Below, piece by piece: positions 27,666 through 34,811 of a stretch of DNA of 64,000 nt (positions within the stretch are counted from its first letter, which is position 1; each line of letters opens with the position of its first letter). The stretch spans positions 1 through 64,000 of the forward strand of contig JAAEAF010006636.1 of assembly GCA_011037195.1 (NCBI GenBank). Reading direction: 5' to 3'. This DNA is from Triatoma infestans. Its lineage: Eukaryota > Arthropoda > Insecta > Hemiptera > Reduviidae. The translations under genes and the position numbers were made by a program. The notes beneath the pieces are model-generated. The model had not been told where the DNA came from and did not search any database. It saw only the letters and a list, made by a program, of their open reading frames with translations.

Positions 27666-28771
27666 ACCATTTTAACTATTGCTGAATGAATAAAATACAT
27701 TATAAAACTGTATTCTTTTTCTTTTGTTTTTAATTAATTATTAAAACATTCACTTGCCCTCCCTTACATATCTAAATTATATTAATTACACTTCTTGCTT
27801 TTTTATTATTATATCATTTTAAGATAATTAAATCTTCATTTATTCCATCAATCCCGGTAGACGGATGTCCATGCCGTAGATTACTTCTAGAAATATTTTT
27901 GTATTTACAATTCTTATTTTAATAAAGATAATTATTATTAAATTATTAATTTTTAAATTAAAATTATTTGATACATCTAATTTAGGAATTTAGTAGCCAT
28001 TTTACAATGAGTACATTCGATAATCGCGTAGTAAAAAAAAAAACAACATTAAATTGCATCTAATTTATGTTTTTATTTTAACCTTGTTTTTTCGTGTATA
28101 AAAAAGTCTGGGCTCTTGTGTTTTTAACCAGCAATTAAGGTAAAATGTAGGAGCCACACATATGGGATAAGCTTTATTTTATTTGTAATTGACATTAAAG
28201 ACATTTTATTGGATAAATATTTGATTAGGTACGGCTTATTTTCATTTCAATTTATCCGAGAGTGACGCATGAAGTTCAGTAATACGTACATCTTATTAAA
28301 GGGGTTCGTTCATAAAAGAGGACTTAATAAAAATCTGTAGAAAGAAGTATGAGTCGTATGTTGTCAGGGAAATCTCTACATTTCTCATTATTAAACAGTA
28401 TTGCCTGCTATAAGTACTATATTTAGATTTTGATCTAATTTTATTGATTCGTTAAGTAATCACATTTAAAATGACAAATTTATTTCGTTTTTAAGACGGG
28501 AAAACAATGTGTATGAAAACTGTGACTTAAGTAAGGTAACTAACTAGAGTTAATTACTTATGGGTGATCTGTTGTTTAGTTTTAATTAGTGATTTTATGG
28601 TTGTTTTTGTTGTTATTTATAGACTATAGTTAATCTATTTATATTATATTTTTATATTCAATACTTCGATATATATATATATATTTTTTTCCATATTTAA
28701 ATTCTGTTTTATTGAATGGTGGAATTAATGACTAGGGTTAGTACATTTTAGTGGATTGATTTTGAAATTGA
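27666..28771. other. AT-rich DNA upstream of the R2-like element
   Basis: No coding feature. It should hold the 5' untranslated part of the retrotransposon, but I could not place its 5' end, a target duplication, or 28S rDNA sequence next to it. Confidence 0.45.
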
Positions 28772-31700
28772 ATGGAAATTAATAAGAAATCTGCTAATGA
28801 GAGGGAAAGGGAACCTCTCATGCTTGGCCAGAGTGTTTGGATATTTAGGAGTGACGGTAAGGTCCAGAAAGCTGAAGTAGCGTCGTCTTTTATGAACTTG
28901 AGAGAGTCACCGGGCAAGGAAATACAAACCTTTGTCTCCGTAGAATGGATAGATAAAGCCACAGGGTTACTGTTGCGGAAAACTTTACCAATTGATCAAG
29001 TGTTTCCCCGAATAGAGAACCTCAGTAAGAGATCTTCAGATGACGTCTTGTCACCCGATCATCCTGTTTGGACTTATAGGCAGAACGATGGTCAAGACCA
29101 ATTGTCGAATGGCGATACACGGCATTCTGAACCAGATGTTATGGACCAAACCAGTCCCACAAAATCTGGGATTGCTTGTTGCACTTGTAAACAGGTGTTT
29201 AAGAATCAGCGGGGCCTGCAGATACATGTAGCAAAGAAACATCCTGTTGAAGCCAATGCGAATAAAATAAATAAATTGTTTGAGACTGAAACAATAACTA
29301 AAGAAAAACTCCCTATTCACGATAATTTGAAAACGGATTTGGAGAAATGGACCGTCAATTTTAAGAAACTTCTACAAAAATGTGATAACTTCCAACTAAA
29401 TGATTTTGAGAAATGTGTGAATGAATTTATGCAATTCCTCCGAGAAGCAAATAATCTTCTTCCTGGTCCTAAACATCCTGCAAAGCGGTATTACAAAATG
29501 AGAAAGAAAGGAGAATTGAGAATAGCAGGAAAGGGTGCTGGACAAGTCTCAAATCCTACAAGGTCAAATAAAGCAGCTAGGGAGCGTAGAAAAGAACAGT
29601 ACCAGTACGAAGTGGCCCAATACAATTATTACAACCGACGTAAGAAAGTTGTACGCGGTATTATGAACGCCGATGCCCCGAAGCAATGTCCAGTTGGTAT
29701 AGATTCTATAGAGGACCATTTTAAGAAGGCCTTTACTAGGGAAAACAGCGCGCAGAGAGACAGGTATGAAACAAGTAGTGTTAACCCAAACGTTGTTACG
29801 GTTAGTCTCCAAGCTGTGCACAGGGCTATAAAGTCAACGTCATTGGACACAGCATCCGGTCCGGATGGTGTTCTGATCAGAACAATAAAATCTCTCGACA
29901 TAGCCCACATAATCAAAATTATAATTGAAATTATGTTAAGGTCATCTTACGTACCTGAAATTTTTAGATTGGGAAGAACCGTTCTAATATATAAAGGAAA
30001 AGGAATAGCCACAGACATCTCATCCTGGAGACCTATAACGGTCTATCCCATTCATTATAAGACGGATTGTAGAAAAAGTACTGGATGCCGAACTGAGAAA
30101 GCAGACAGCTTTTCATAGATGCCAAAGGGGTTTTGTCAAAGGAATGTCAGGATGTCACGTAAACGCTAGACTGGTAGATGGTATTCTGCGGGATTCCAAG
30201 GAAAATAAAAAAGATGTTGTTGTAGCATTCCTCGACGTCACAGGCGCCTTTGATAACGTGGGCCATCAGCACATTGTCCAATGCCTTGAGGAGAGAGGAT
30301 TATCTAGTGACCTTAAAGACCTTATAGCGGCTCTTGTTACAAAAAATAGTATAGCAATTTCAGCTGGGATAAATAAGACCCAATCGATACGTGTGTTAAG
30401 AGGCGTCCCGCAAGGAGGTCCTCTCTCACCTTCTCTTTTTAATCTGGCTGTTGATCACTTGTACGAAGAGATCTGCGATAGCCAGATGGCAGATCAATAT
30501 GGGTATAAGTTAAATAATGGTCAAGATGGAATTATTCTAACCGGATTTGCGGATGATGTGGCTGTTACAGCGAATAGTATTAAGGGTGCCGAGAGAGTGA
30601 TAGACTTGGTCCAAAGACTATTCAGGGAGATAGGGTTAAATATTAATCCCAGTAAGAGCACTGCCATTGTTGTTGAAAACGGCAATATGGTTAAGCAGAA
30701 CCTTTCCCTAGAAAATGGAGGCTGCATCAAATCTTGTGAACAATCCGAGACAATAAAGTACCTTGGCTGCTCGTATTCTGGTGAACTGGTTTTTGATCAA
30801 GATGCGGTTAAAAAACTCAATGAAAATATGAATAAACTGACCACATCCAATTTATTGAAACCAGACCAGAAATTGAATATTATAAATCAATACATATTCC
30901 CGACGATGGTATATCCTCTCCAAACTGCCCCTCTAACAAAACTTAAACCAGCGTTACTTGAAGGAACGGATGTGCTGATCAGAAGAAGTGTTAAGGCTAT
31001 GCTCGGCCTACCGGCAAGCACTGCTTCGGCAATGTTTTATGCCTCTCGTCGCTATCGCGGCTTAGGCTTGCTTAGATGCGAGTGGGAGGCTCCTCTGCAG
31101 CACTGGTCACTTGCCCAAAAGCTCGCAAAAGTTCGGGATGCCCATTTTCAACAAATATTTGATTACGAGGTTGAAGCGAAGATATGTGCATCCAGGTTGA
31201 ACATATGTACCGACAAAGATTTTCCTAGCATCAGAAAGCTTAGACAGCAATTAAGAGAAAAATCTTTTGAAGAATGGACAAACTGTAAATGGCAAGGGGT
31301 TGGGGTATGCCACTTTAAGGACAGCCCAAAATTAAATCAGTTTGTATACGACAAGAAAATCTTATCATGTTCAGAATGGAGTAATGCTGTTAAGCTGAAC
31401 ATAAACTATGCCCCACTTCGTGCTGTTCCTGGGGTTGGCGGACAGTCGGCAGGAGCTGTTGGACCCCTCTGTCGCAAATGCGGCAGAGAGCCTGAAACAC
31501 CAGCGCATGTGCTTGGTAATTGTCCTGACAACATGCTTCTTGTAACTAGACGCCACCATAGGGTAAAGCACGCCTTGATGGAGATTATGGAAAAAAAAGG
31601 TTATGTGACTCTCGAAGAGGTATACGCTGTAGATACAGATGGATCTACAAGATACGCTGATATTATAGCGTTTGACAATGCCAGCAATGTAGCATATATT

Positions 31701-31997
31701 TTGGATCCGACCATCCGTTTCGAGAGTAAGGATCCGAAACAGGGCGAGAAAATAGATGAGGAGAAAAGGGCAATTTACGAAAAATGTATTCCCTTTTATA
31801 AGGAGAAGTTTGAGGATCAGTTCGGGGTAAGGGAGTACAAGGTGCATGGCTTGTGGTTTGGTGCCAGAGGTGTGGTGCCTAAGACAACCTTGGACTTTTT
31901 CGACAAGGTAAATATTAGCCTTAAAGACATAGCTCCTTTAGTGGAGAATATTTTAGTTCACTCCCTGGGAATTATTTCCCAGCATATTTACAGATAA
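28772..31997 (+). pseudogene. R2-like non-LTR retrotransposon polyprotein with a kinesin-13-like N-terminal domain (one frameshift)
   Basis: One frame of about 1074 codons with one +1 frameshift near 30052. The start is fixed by an in-frame TGA directly before ATG. Residues 18-81 (GQSVWIFRSDGKVQKAEVA, FVSVEWIDK, DQVF) resemble the N-terminal domain of kinesin-13 motors. Residues 136-157 are a C2H2 finger (C-x2-C-x12-H-x4-H), used by R2-type elements for target DNA binding. The reverse transcriptase has SGPDGV (about 361), SSWRPITV (about 420), RGVPQGGPLSPSLFN (about 543), the catalytic FADDVAV (about 592) and a YLGC thumb block. The C terminus has C-x2-C-x8-H-x4-C (about 900) and RYADIIAFD...LDPTIRFE (about 960-985), the restriction-like endonuclease region. 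Length and domain order fit R2/R4-type elements with one finger. No 28S target flanks it. The light damage suggests recent activity. Confidence 0.9.
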
Positions 31998-32275
31998 ATT
32001 TAATGTATATACGTATTTAGACTTAGGTGCACTTTATGTCATCTATACATATTATGTCTTTTATTTGAGACTGGACATTAGGACATCTTTAAATTTTTCA
32101 ACTTTTTATGAATAGGTATCATCGCTTTTTGGTATGTCTACGGATTGATGAGTACGCTGTGTGTTGGAGCACCTCAATTTAATTGAGCAGCCTCACTTGA
32201 TTTTGATTGAGTGTTCTCTTGTCCAATTGGTGCATTTTAATAATCAGAGACATTTTCCGTGGTAGCCTGCTTCAT
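31998..32275. other. 3' flank of the R2-like element
   Basis: Probably includes the 3' untranslated region, but no poly-A tail or duplication is clear. 32146-32197 is a conserved box shared with 56092-56143. 32240-32275 is a fragment of the hammerhead foldback family (CAGAGACATTTTCCGTGG, GCCTGCTTCATTT). Confidence 0.5.
32146..32197 (+). repeat. conserved 52-bp box with a small hairpin, copy 1
   Basis: TGATGAGTACGCTGTGTGT, then AGCA-CTCAA, five bases, TTGAGCAGCCTCACT. The CTCAA/TTGAG hairpin loop differs between the two copies while the stem is kept. Not assigned to a known element. Confidence 0.6.
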
Positions 32276-33041
32276 TTAGACAGAGAGCGGGGTTAACTTA
32301 GACCGAGTCACCCAACGGTTAATCACAAGATTGAGAGGGAAAATTAAGCCCCGTCCATGATCTACAAACCAATTATGTGCATGAAGAGGGAAAAAGTTGG
32401 TTCCCCCGCCTTTTTTTACAATTTCCCACCTTGTTTCTTACGGGTGTTGATTTAGCATTTAAGTTCTGAAGAAGCCTGTTGCAATATGAGGGAAACGCCG
32501 GTTTGTAACAAACTATAGACGCAATCTCAACCCTAGGATTAAACGTCTATGTGTATATTTAGTATGCGAAGTTTCAAGAAAATCATTCAAAACTGTGTTA
32601 ACACAAAGTCAATCTATCTAAGAAAACATGAAAAAGGATGTTAGATAATAAAGAGCGGTAATCGATAGAATTCTGTTCATACACAAAAAAGTATAATAAG
32701 TCACATCTCTTCTTCCAGCTAGCGAACTCAACGTTGGATTTAACAAAGAAACTTTGTACTAACCAACAAAGAAATGTAAAGAAGTGTACTTGGTATTTGA
32801 TCTTAAGATCGTATAAGAAATGAGAATATAAAGGCAAAGACAGGAAAGGAAAAAAATTGAATGAAATTAGGCGTATGCTTATTCCAGATATAAAGAACCG
32901 GAAGAATTAGCGCCTATAAATGCGTTTTTGAGATACATTTTACATACGCACACATACAGAGCATTCAAGAAATAATTCTTTTCTAATTTAGGAGATCTCA
33001 GTTTCCGGTTAATTTTGAAAATTGAACTTTGATTGTAATAC
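32276..33041 (+). repeat. left arm of a large inverted repeat (about 766 bp)
   Basis: Pairs with 36107-36890 over its whole length, for example GACAGAGAGCGGGG, GTCACCCAACGG, AGAACCGGAAGAATTAGCGC and GGAGATCTCAGTTTCCGG. Includes a hammerhead-like CTGAAGAAGCC...GGGAAACGCCGG at 32466-32502, changed at the cleavage-site triplet (GCC for GTC). Its inner end resembles the family A start. Confidence 0.85.
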
Positions 33042-33224
33042 ACAGAGTGTATAAACTGAATTTGCTCTGTGGCAAGTTTGTGTTATCACACTGTCTGGCA
33101 AACGTATCCTGAAGATGGGCGAACGCACGAAACCGGTCGATGACCACAAAATGAAGCAGGCTACCACGGAAAATATCTGATGCTTTCCAGCTCTGCGGAA
33201 CCAACCACCACAACAACCATTTTC
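33042..33224 (-). mobile_element. hammerhead foldback family, single-arm copy
   Basis: Equivalent to the left arm of 7697-8072, read on the minus strand: GGTTGTTGTGGTGGTTGGTT, CCGCAGAGCTGGAAAGCATC, the ATTTTCCGTGGTAGCCTGC block, then the hammerhead and AGTGTGATAACACAAACTTG. It ends at the inner edge of the large inverted repeat. Confidence 0.75.
33105..33142 (+). ncRNA. hammerhead ribozyme motif, one stem II change
   Basis: Stem I TATC/GATG (one T-G pair), CTGAAGA (33109-33115), stem II GGGC/GCAC with one mismatch, GAA, stem III ACC/GGT, cleavage C at 33138. Probably weakened. Confidence 0.6.
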
Positions 33225-33518: not shown

Positions 33519-34811
33519 CGAGGGTGGTTTGAAAAGTTCTCGGAATCACCGCTAGATGTCAGTGCTAGAGCAACGAGGTTCCCGCGCAATAATCACTGAT
33601 TCTTTGTGGGTAAACACGTGGCGCGTCAGTTCTCTTGCTGCAGGAGAGTGGTAGTGACGACTCTTTGTTGTTGTTCCCGCGTAGTGATTTTTGACAATGG
33701 ATAAAACTGAGATTCGAGCAGTGATTAAGTACTTTGTAAAGAAAGGTATGAAAGCAAAGGAAATTCATGCGGACTTTCAGAACACACTGGGGGACTCTGC
33801 TCCTTCATATTCAACTGTTGCCTAGTGGACCAGCGAGTTTAAATTTGGTCGGGAGAGCTTAGATGATGATCCGCGTATTGGACGGGCAAAAAGTGCTACG
33901 ACCCCAGAATTTATCGCAAAAGTGCATAAAATGGTCATGGAGGATCGTCGTCTGAAAGTGCGAGAGATTGCTGAAGCTATAGGGATGTCATCTGAACGGG
34001 TATATCACATTTTAACCGAAGAATTAGGAATGAAAAAATTATCGGCAAGATGGGTGCCGCGGCTCTTGACATTGGACCATAAACGCACCAGATTGGAAAT
34101 GTCCGAACAAAGTCTGGCCCGTTTTCAGCGCAACCAACAAGATTTTTTGCGCCGGTTTGTGACTACAGATGAAACTTGGGTCCACTACTATACCCCAGAG
34201 ACAAAACAGCAGTCAAAGCAGTGGAAACATGCTGAGTCACCACCACCAAAGAAAGCAAAGGCAGTACGTTCGGCCGGAAAGGTCATGGCCTCAGTTTTCT
34301 GGGATGCAAAAGGCATTCTGCTGATAGATTATCTTCCTACTGGCCAAACAATTACGGGGCAATACTATGCAAACCTCCTAGACCAACTACAGGAAAAGAT
34401 ACGCGAAAAAAGGCCTGGTTTGGCAAGGAAGAAAGTCATCTTTCATCAGGACAACGCCCGCCCGCACACAAGTGTTATGCCATGGCAAAACTTCATGAAC
34501 TGAGGTACGAATTGTTGCCACATCCACCTTATTCACCTGATTTGGCACCATCAGACTTTCATCTCTTCCCCAAGCTGAAAATTTTCCTCGGTGGACGGAG
34601 ATTTCCTACAACGGAAGAACTGACAGCCGAATTGGAGAGGTACTTTGTAGGCCTGGAGAAATCTCATTTTCGAGATGGGATAAAGGCATTGGAACATTGC
34701 TGGACCAAATGCATTAGTCTACAGGGAGACTATGTTGAAAAATAAAAGCAGTTCCACCGAGGTAAGACACTTCTTTCTAGTACATTCCGAGAACTTTTCA
34801 AACCACCCTCG
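33519..34811 (+). mobile_element. mariner-family transposon, full length (1293 bp)
   Basis: Terminal inverted repeats of about 28 bp begin CGAGGGTGGTTTGAAAAG and differ at only one base over the outer 26. TA flanks both sides (33517-33518 and 34812-34813). Encodes an almost intact transposase. It inserted into a reversed family A copy. Confidence 0.95.
33697..34745 (+). pseudogene. mariner transposase, one stop and one frameshift
   Basis: Starts at ATG 33697 with MDKTEIRAVIKYFVKKG. The DNA-binding half has two helix-turn-helix regions (SYSTVA-WTSEFKFGR, then VREIAEAIGMSSERVYHIL) and the linker WVPRLLT. The catalytic DD34D triad is visible: TTDETWVHYYTP, VIFHQDNARPHTS, and YSPDLAPSDFHLFP. It ends in GDYVEK. 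Lesions are an in-frame TAG at about 33823, one base away from the Lys codon expected before WTSEF, and a one-base loss near 34480 just after the second catalytic Asp. Total length of about 348 codons is normal for the family. It is therefore a young copy, inactive itself; a source copy probably exists elsewhere in the genome. Confidence 0.93.

Follow-up and report, generated by a model that had tools for sequence, protein, structure and literature searches.

The retroelement copy in the analyzed stretch of Triatoma infestans DNA (64,000 nucleotides, hereafter the window) appears to encode a protein whose first module derives from kinesin-13. The explanation we favor, to which we assign a probability of about 0.6, is a single ancient capture of the kinesin-13 domain, followed by its retention and use as a tether. 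An ancestor of a BLAG-type, non-site-specific R2-like lineage would have captured the N-terminal small barrel of kinesin-13 (KIF2/Klp10A) once, long ago, and the barrel would have become the first module of a single protein, upstream of a C2H2 zinc finger, the BLAG motif, the reverse transcriptase (RT), and the endonuclease. It would then have been retained as the elements diversified. In the element, the domain may act as a protein or chromatin tether that brings the RNA-protein particle of the element to chromosomes, possibly in dividing nuclei.

The copy occupies positions 28548-32219 of the window on the forward strand, as delimited by the block that it shares with 20 loci in blastn comparisons. 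It is truncated within its own 5′ UTR, of which a remnant is left (28548-28771), and lacks about 510 bp of 5′ sequence that other copies share upstream; full copies are about 4.17 kb long (e.g., L039:2266-6435). The first open frame (28772-30118, forward, 448 amino acids) contains the KIF2A-like domain, a linker, the C2H2 finger, the BLAG motif, and the start of the RT. Its ATG at 28772 stands directly behind an in-frame TGA codon (28769-28771), in agreement with the preliminary description of this DNA, which had also pointed to a kinesin-13-like pattern at residues 18-81; the residues quoted there, GQSVWIFRSDGKVQKAEV ... VSVEW ... DQVF, are found at 28823-29014. We place the domain (KIF2A-like_1st, kinesin-13 N-terminal) at residues 15-81 (28814-29014, forward) based on the Pfam family PF22923, a kinesin-13 HMM, hhalign, and the strands in the model of the counterpart in L051, a related copy elsewhere in this genome. 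The single N-terminal C2H2 finger, at about residues 135-157 (29174-29242, forward), scores weakly (zf-C2H2_4, E 0.02; zf-C2H2, E 0.051; both below cut-off) and shares 53-57% of its residues with the corresponding fingers of L051 and of proteins from Rhynocoris, an assassin bug. The BLAG motif region lies between the finger and the RT (29405-29665, forward).

The first frame ends just inside the RT, and the remainder of the RT and the endonuclease region are in a different frame; the window copy is therefore broken within the RT. The second open frame (30144-31997, forward, 617 amino acids) covers the remaining RT (RVT_1, E 3e-27) and then a zinc-knuckle and restriction-like endonuclease region at approximately 31350-31984 (forward). 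This region is the counterpart of L051 residues 860-1074, which align with the C-terminal part of an R2 protein in the PDB. The 3′ UTR (31998-32219, forward) has a short CT run at its end, and the flank beyond it is unrelated among copies. An earlier claim that the domain is in frame with the finger and the RT holds in this copy for the finger and the start of the RT, the rest of the RT being frameshifted. In L051, the whole protein of 1074 residues is in one open frame, including the KIF2A-like domain (residues 16-76), the finger (about 134-156), and RVT_1 (410-665). The window copy (29940-30200), L040, and L041, which have unrelated flanks, carry one and the same small insertion that shifts the RT frame, so an already defective source was apparently copied, perhaps with enzyme supplied in trans.

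Elsewhere in the window there is a repeat of about 177 bp (33039-33216), which also occurs beside or inside element copies L044, L046, L047, L052, and L057 and is probably a common short mobile repeat. A forward-strand open reading frame for 193 amino acids (33922-34503) looks to us like a mariner-type transposase.

Judged by its sequence, the element is a BLAG-type, non-site-specific R2-like retrotransposon and not the R2 of ribosomal DNA. For the RT-to-endonuclease part of L051, the five best PDB sequences are R2 proteins (E 4e-68 to 5.9e-41), with LINE-1 next (4.9e-21). PDB entry 8gh6 is presumably Bombyx R2. The architecture from RT to endonuclease is common to the element and R2 proper (PDB 9nl3 and 9dou, the latter R2Tg), from which the element differs in having an N-terminal KIF2A-like domain and in not being at one site. 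By eye, the flanks differ from copy to copy (15 5′ ends and 13 3′ ends compared), and on this comparison of the flanks with each other the R2 of 28S rDNA is rejected. In most copies, the 3′ end is a short CT run.

Both parts of the BLAG motif align between the finger and the RT in all nine proteins tested; against the motifs as published (PMC7650587), the window copy has identities of 19/30 and 26/57, and L051 of 19/30 and 29/55. In the sections of that paper used here, the motif is a mark of non-site-specific R2-like elements that were described in the German cockroach and have relatives in one bug and one tardigrade; for R2 proper, the paper reports no significant match to it. The BLAG proteins, known to us from their description in those sections of PMC7650587, have one or two CCHH fingers as their only N-terminal modules and ORFs of 974-1073 amino acids. 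Common to those elements, as described there, and to the element analyzed here are a single N-terminal C2H2 finger, a BLAG motif between it and an R2-type RT, a CCHC knuckle, an endonuclease, unrelated flanks, and a single ORF of about 1000-1070 amino acids; the difference is the KIF2A-like domain, which those sections do not report. Pfam listed no Myb family in L051 at E ≤ 1, a search for which the Myb motifs of R2 may be too weak. No regular target-site duplication was found in seven copies. Tandem repeats above 2.5% occur at only one of 20 insertion loci, so there is no enrichment in satellites, which may be missing from the assembly; as far as the assembly can show, targeting of centromeric satellites is rejected.

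The 5′ stretch of full copies (L039:2269-2492, forward; L051:5746-5965, reverse; and seven others) reads as an HDV-like double pseudoknot with a P1 of 7 bp, P2 of 6 bp, P3 of 3 bp, P4 of 8 bp, and a long J1/2 that forms a hairpin itself. Each of the pairs is kept in seven to nine of the nine copies, with G-U/G-C changes in P1. The layout was read by hand, and neither in three loci nor at the 5′ end of L051 did Rfam list a ribozyme family; with that qualification it is a likeness to R2 proper. A self-cleaving ribozyme at this position, if true, would account for the 5′ ends of a BLAG-type element.

The element domain is very probably a homolog of its kinesin-13 counterpart. PF22923 matches the first 133 residues of the window protein at residues 15-81 (E 2e-5, 24.5 bits) and the whole 448 amino acid frame at 20.9 bits (E 2.8e-4), both under the curated Pfam cut-off of 27 bits. 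The L051 N-terminus scores 27.5 bits alone and 21.7 bits within the whole protein, the L044 N-terminus 16.8 bits, and the whole Rhynocoris proteins P0001, P0002, and P0003 score 24.8, 21.2, and 25.1 bits. Such single-sequence scores near or below the cut-off, along with a common fold that has no significant match in the PDB, would also be compatible with a convergent or very distant small barrel of Tudor/SH3 type, for which the PF22923 match is a look-alike. We consider this very improbable, given that PF22923 is listed at E ≤ 10 in all seven aligned element members and that no Tudor, SH3, chromo, or other small-barrel family is listed at this threshold in these members or the window N-terminus. 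For the first 133 residues of the window protein, no other Pfam family is listed at E ≤ 10, a range in which HMMER filters drop most matches above about 0.1. Other element families of the same genome reach 40.5 bits with PF22923, and an hhalign comparison of the element profile with the kinesin-13 profile gave a probability of 96.65%, with 31% identity over 58 columns. The proposals made earlier, that profile similarity to kinesin-13 exists and that no other small-barrel family matches better, are thus borne out by sequence, the fold itself being generic.

The kinesin-13 set was collected with fly Klp10A as the query and consists of the best 120 of 232 proteins with E ≤ 10, nearly all of them kinesin-13; eight of the 120 have PF22923 alone in the precomputed Pfam list. 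When ten element pieces were scored with a profile of kinesin-13 N-termini, nine gave E-values between 2.7e-7 and 1.3e-3 (calculated for this set of ten), and the tenth, L055p, which is broken at its start, gave 0.16. None of 3,871 scored shuffles of four element N-termini equaled the real score (4,000 made, 1000 for each N-terminus, of which 995, 995, 989, and 892 were scored). The kinesin-13 profile was also compared to 3,600 stretches translated in six frames, taken from the window and 58 loci. Element N-termini fill all of the top 39 rows, some copies being counted twice because loci overlap. The E-values of these rows range from 0.0045 to 2.1 (0.14 for the window), so single scores are modest, and an element N-terminus that is broken, and accounts for three rows (L016, L032, and L045), ranks under two chance rows. 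The shuffles and six-frame decoys rule out a chance match.

Eight residues (G19, R26, G29, A34, E58, W59, G65, and K70 in window numbering) are invariant in six element and seven kinesin sequences, suggesting that an old fold or surface was retained. The element thus has in common with the N-terminal domain of KIF2A, KIF2C, and Klp10A the PF22923 profile, these residues, and the predicted order of strands. It differs in its overall sequence (31% identical in the profile alignment) and in a b2-b3 loop that is about 8-9 residues longer, and, unlike a kinesin-13 protein, lacks a motor domain (no PF00225 listed in L051 or the window ORFs). A PDB sequence search with the 133 residue window N-terminus gave no match at E ≤ 10. 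By sequence, the kinesin domain is represented in the PDB by one KIF2C sequence only (9n9h, 9n9i, and 9yxq), in which the matched barrel segment is residues 9-64. By eye, the KIF2A-like segment occurs twice in the N-terminal part of a kinesin of 761 amino acids (P0061) from the nematode Meloidogyne javanica.

From an alignment of element-only sequences with L051 first, AlphaFold2 predicted a small barrel with strands at residues 21-25, 31-43, 50-59, and 66-72 and a helix at 73-76. Confidence is modest (mean pLDDT 61, and 64-82 per ten-residue block over residues 21-70). Bee kinesin-13, modeled from a kinesin-only alignment, has predicted strands at 15-19, 25-34, 39-46, and 49-56 and a helix at 57-63. 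Four strands and a helix are present in both models, which were made from disjoint alignments, and their order and rough lengths agree; the second hairpin is longer in the element model. A PDB fold search with the element model returned 567 matches at E ≤ 10 and none at E ≤ 0.001. The matches are generic SH3/Tudor-like barrels, among which DNA-, RNA-, and histone-binding ones occur without preference.

That lack of preference would suit a homologous domain whose job has changed, so that beside the zinc finger it serves as a part of the ribonucleoprotein, in dimerization, binding of template RNA, or contact with target DNA. Nucleic acid binding is frequent among small SH3-like barrels. In R2 proteins, the modules at the N-terminus bind DNA and RNA, according to the portions of PMC13188248 used here. 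The eight residues invariant between elements and kinesins suggest a kept fold or surface, which argues against such a change, and we regard it as possible but not likely.

It is virtually certain that the domain is part of the element across several families. The window N-terminus has at least 150 matches in its own genome of 941 Mb (150 scored of 214 candidates), many of them 35-50% identical and some in frames of 900-1078 amino acids. PF22923 has 118 matches in this genome, of which 66 are over the cut-off (32 directly and 34 with neighbors in frame). At 48 of these 66 places, an element pre-RT region in the same orientation begins no more than 1.5 kb downstream; the remaining 18 comprise two host candidates, C4206 (where the pre-RT match is further off), and 15 without a match among the listed pre-RT places. 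In the opposite direction, the domain lies 480-751 bp upstream at 104 of 150 listed pre-RT places (150 scored of 1,114 candidates; 152 matches were reported, and C10906 is there twice for one copy). The 104 comprise 98 from the window N-terminus or PF22923 places and six added by an assassin-bug domain query (C1527, C13682, C49, C1859, C3910, and C9971), with a spacing of 582-633 bp determined by hand. The remaining 46 places have no domain match and may be cut off, too divergent, or truly without the domain; many are partial and others are in long frames (e.g., C13403, 903 amino acids, and C4942, 868 amino acids). Further copies do carry the domain, as expected, at the 104 places, and copies without it may be among these 46.

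The best PF22923 matches of the genome, C2507:130818-130973 (69.8 bits, in a frame of 695 amino acids) and C11370:17879-17983 (55.8 bits), are probably host kinesin-13 exons; C2507 is read in this way because of its score alone. With a probable host domain in the genome, the domain in the window might not belong to the element and might be an exon of a host kinesin or have been fused by chance to the front of a single copy. This is ruled out for practical purposes by the similar spacing at the 104 places, by recurrence in Rhynocoris, and by the fact that copies whose flanks are unrelated have the domain within the unit that was transposed. The same observations uphold the original proposal that the domain belongs to the element.

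Three of eight database relatives carry the domain. They are the Rhynocoris fuscipes proteins P0001-P0003, which are 46-47% identical to the first frame across 92-94% of its length; PF22923 is precomputed for two of them, so that the architecture was already visible in the Pfam lines of these two proteins. P0004 and P0005 start at the last residues of the domain and have no Pfam match to it; they lie on contigs of 2008 and 1412 bp, and their gene models may be cut. P0006 (510 amino acids) has the BLAG motif and two fingers, and P0008 (431 amino acids, PF27108 precomputed) has the BLAG motif and a Cys-rich N-terminus with finger-like motifs; the domain is absent from both. We take the Cys-rich region of P0008 to be PHD-like. 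P0007 is a partial RT. Exchange of N-terminal modules may be common in this BLAG-motif clade. A search with P0001 residues 1-125 returned only P0001 itself and P0002 among 183 candidates, and was therefore insensitive since it missed P0003.

A tree of five element domains and 19 kinesin rows has one split, with 100/99 support, that separates element from kinesin; it is based on 62 columns, has long branches and an arbitrary root, and includes no bug kinesin. The comparison with host KIF2 proteins that had been suggested is thereby answered in part, in that the element domains stand apart from the kinesins in rows without a bug kinesin. Between the window copy and L051, amino acid identity is 61% in the domain, 38% in the linker, 53% in the finger, and 62% in the pre-RT stretch (residues 161-345), and identity at codon positions 1, 2, and 3 is 71, 85, and 53%. 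Elements of this genome are 37-48% identical to those of Rhynocoris in the domain and 7-21% in the linker. The tree and the identities, which are a comparison of identity and not a formal test of selection, fit one old capture and lasting constraint.

We consider one old capture from the host probable. The domain could instead have been gained more than once, or have spread among element families by recombination. BLAG elements recombine at their 5′ ends and swap N-terminal zinc-finger regions, as described in section 3.4 of PMC7650587, and the BLAG-motif proteins P0006 (two fingers) and P0008 (Cys-rich) have other N-termini. This alternative seems unlikely to us because the five tested element domains group together and all have the b2-b3 loop that is about 8-9 residues longer than in kinesins.

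Within the single-capture explanation, the role of the domain is the more tentative part. The N-terminal part of kinesin-13, including this sub-domain, serves targeting, and by analogy the element domain may tether the particle to chromosomes or chromatin, which we take to be its likeliest role and would put at somewhat less than even odds. A tether would suit the element because its copies have no common target sequence, and would be comparable in idea to the chromodomain tethers of LTR elements, with a host-domain tether here on a LINE. It is doubtful that the captured targeting domain lets the elements ride mitotic chromosomes, kinetochores, or the spindle; if true, this would give nuclear entry or retention at division and dispersed insertion. 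Since 19 of the 20 loci have no satellite DNA around them, a strictly centromeric tether is disfavored, as far as the assembly can show.

We found no description of a KIF2A-like domain on R2-like elements in the open-licence literature, including the available portions of PMC7650587, PMC13188248, and PMC5035012. By term search of those portions, a 2026 survey of R2 N-termini (PMC13188248) has no mention of kinesin, Tudor, BLAG, or Hemiptera, and PMC5035012 none of kinesin or Hemiptera. Within the open-licence literature, a kinesin-13-type domain on a BLAG-type element is apparently undescribed.

R2-type proteins find DNA by fingers, Myb motifs, and the endonuclease. A host cell-division domain that heads an entire radiation of elements would be an uncommon route to chromatin. 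Nuclear entry and site choice of a LINE particle become testable with one small domain. The element domain also points to a binding partner of the kinesin-13 N-terminal domain, and binding this partner may be the only function that the element has kept.
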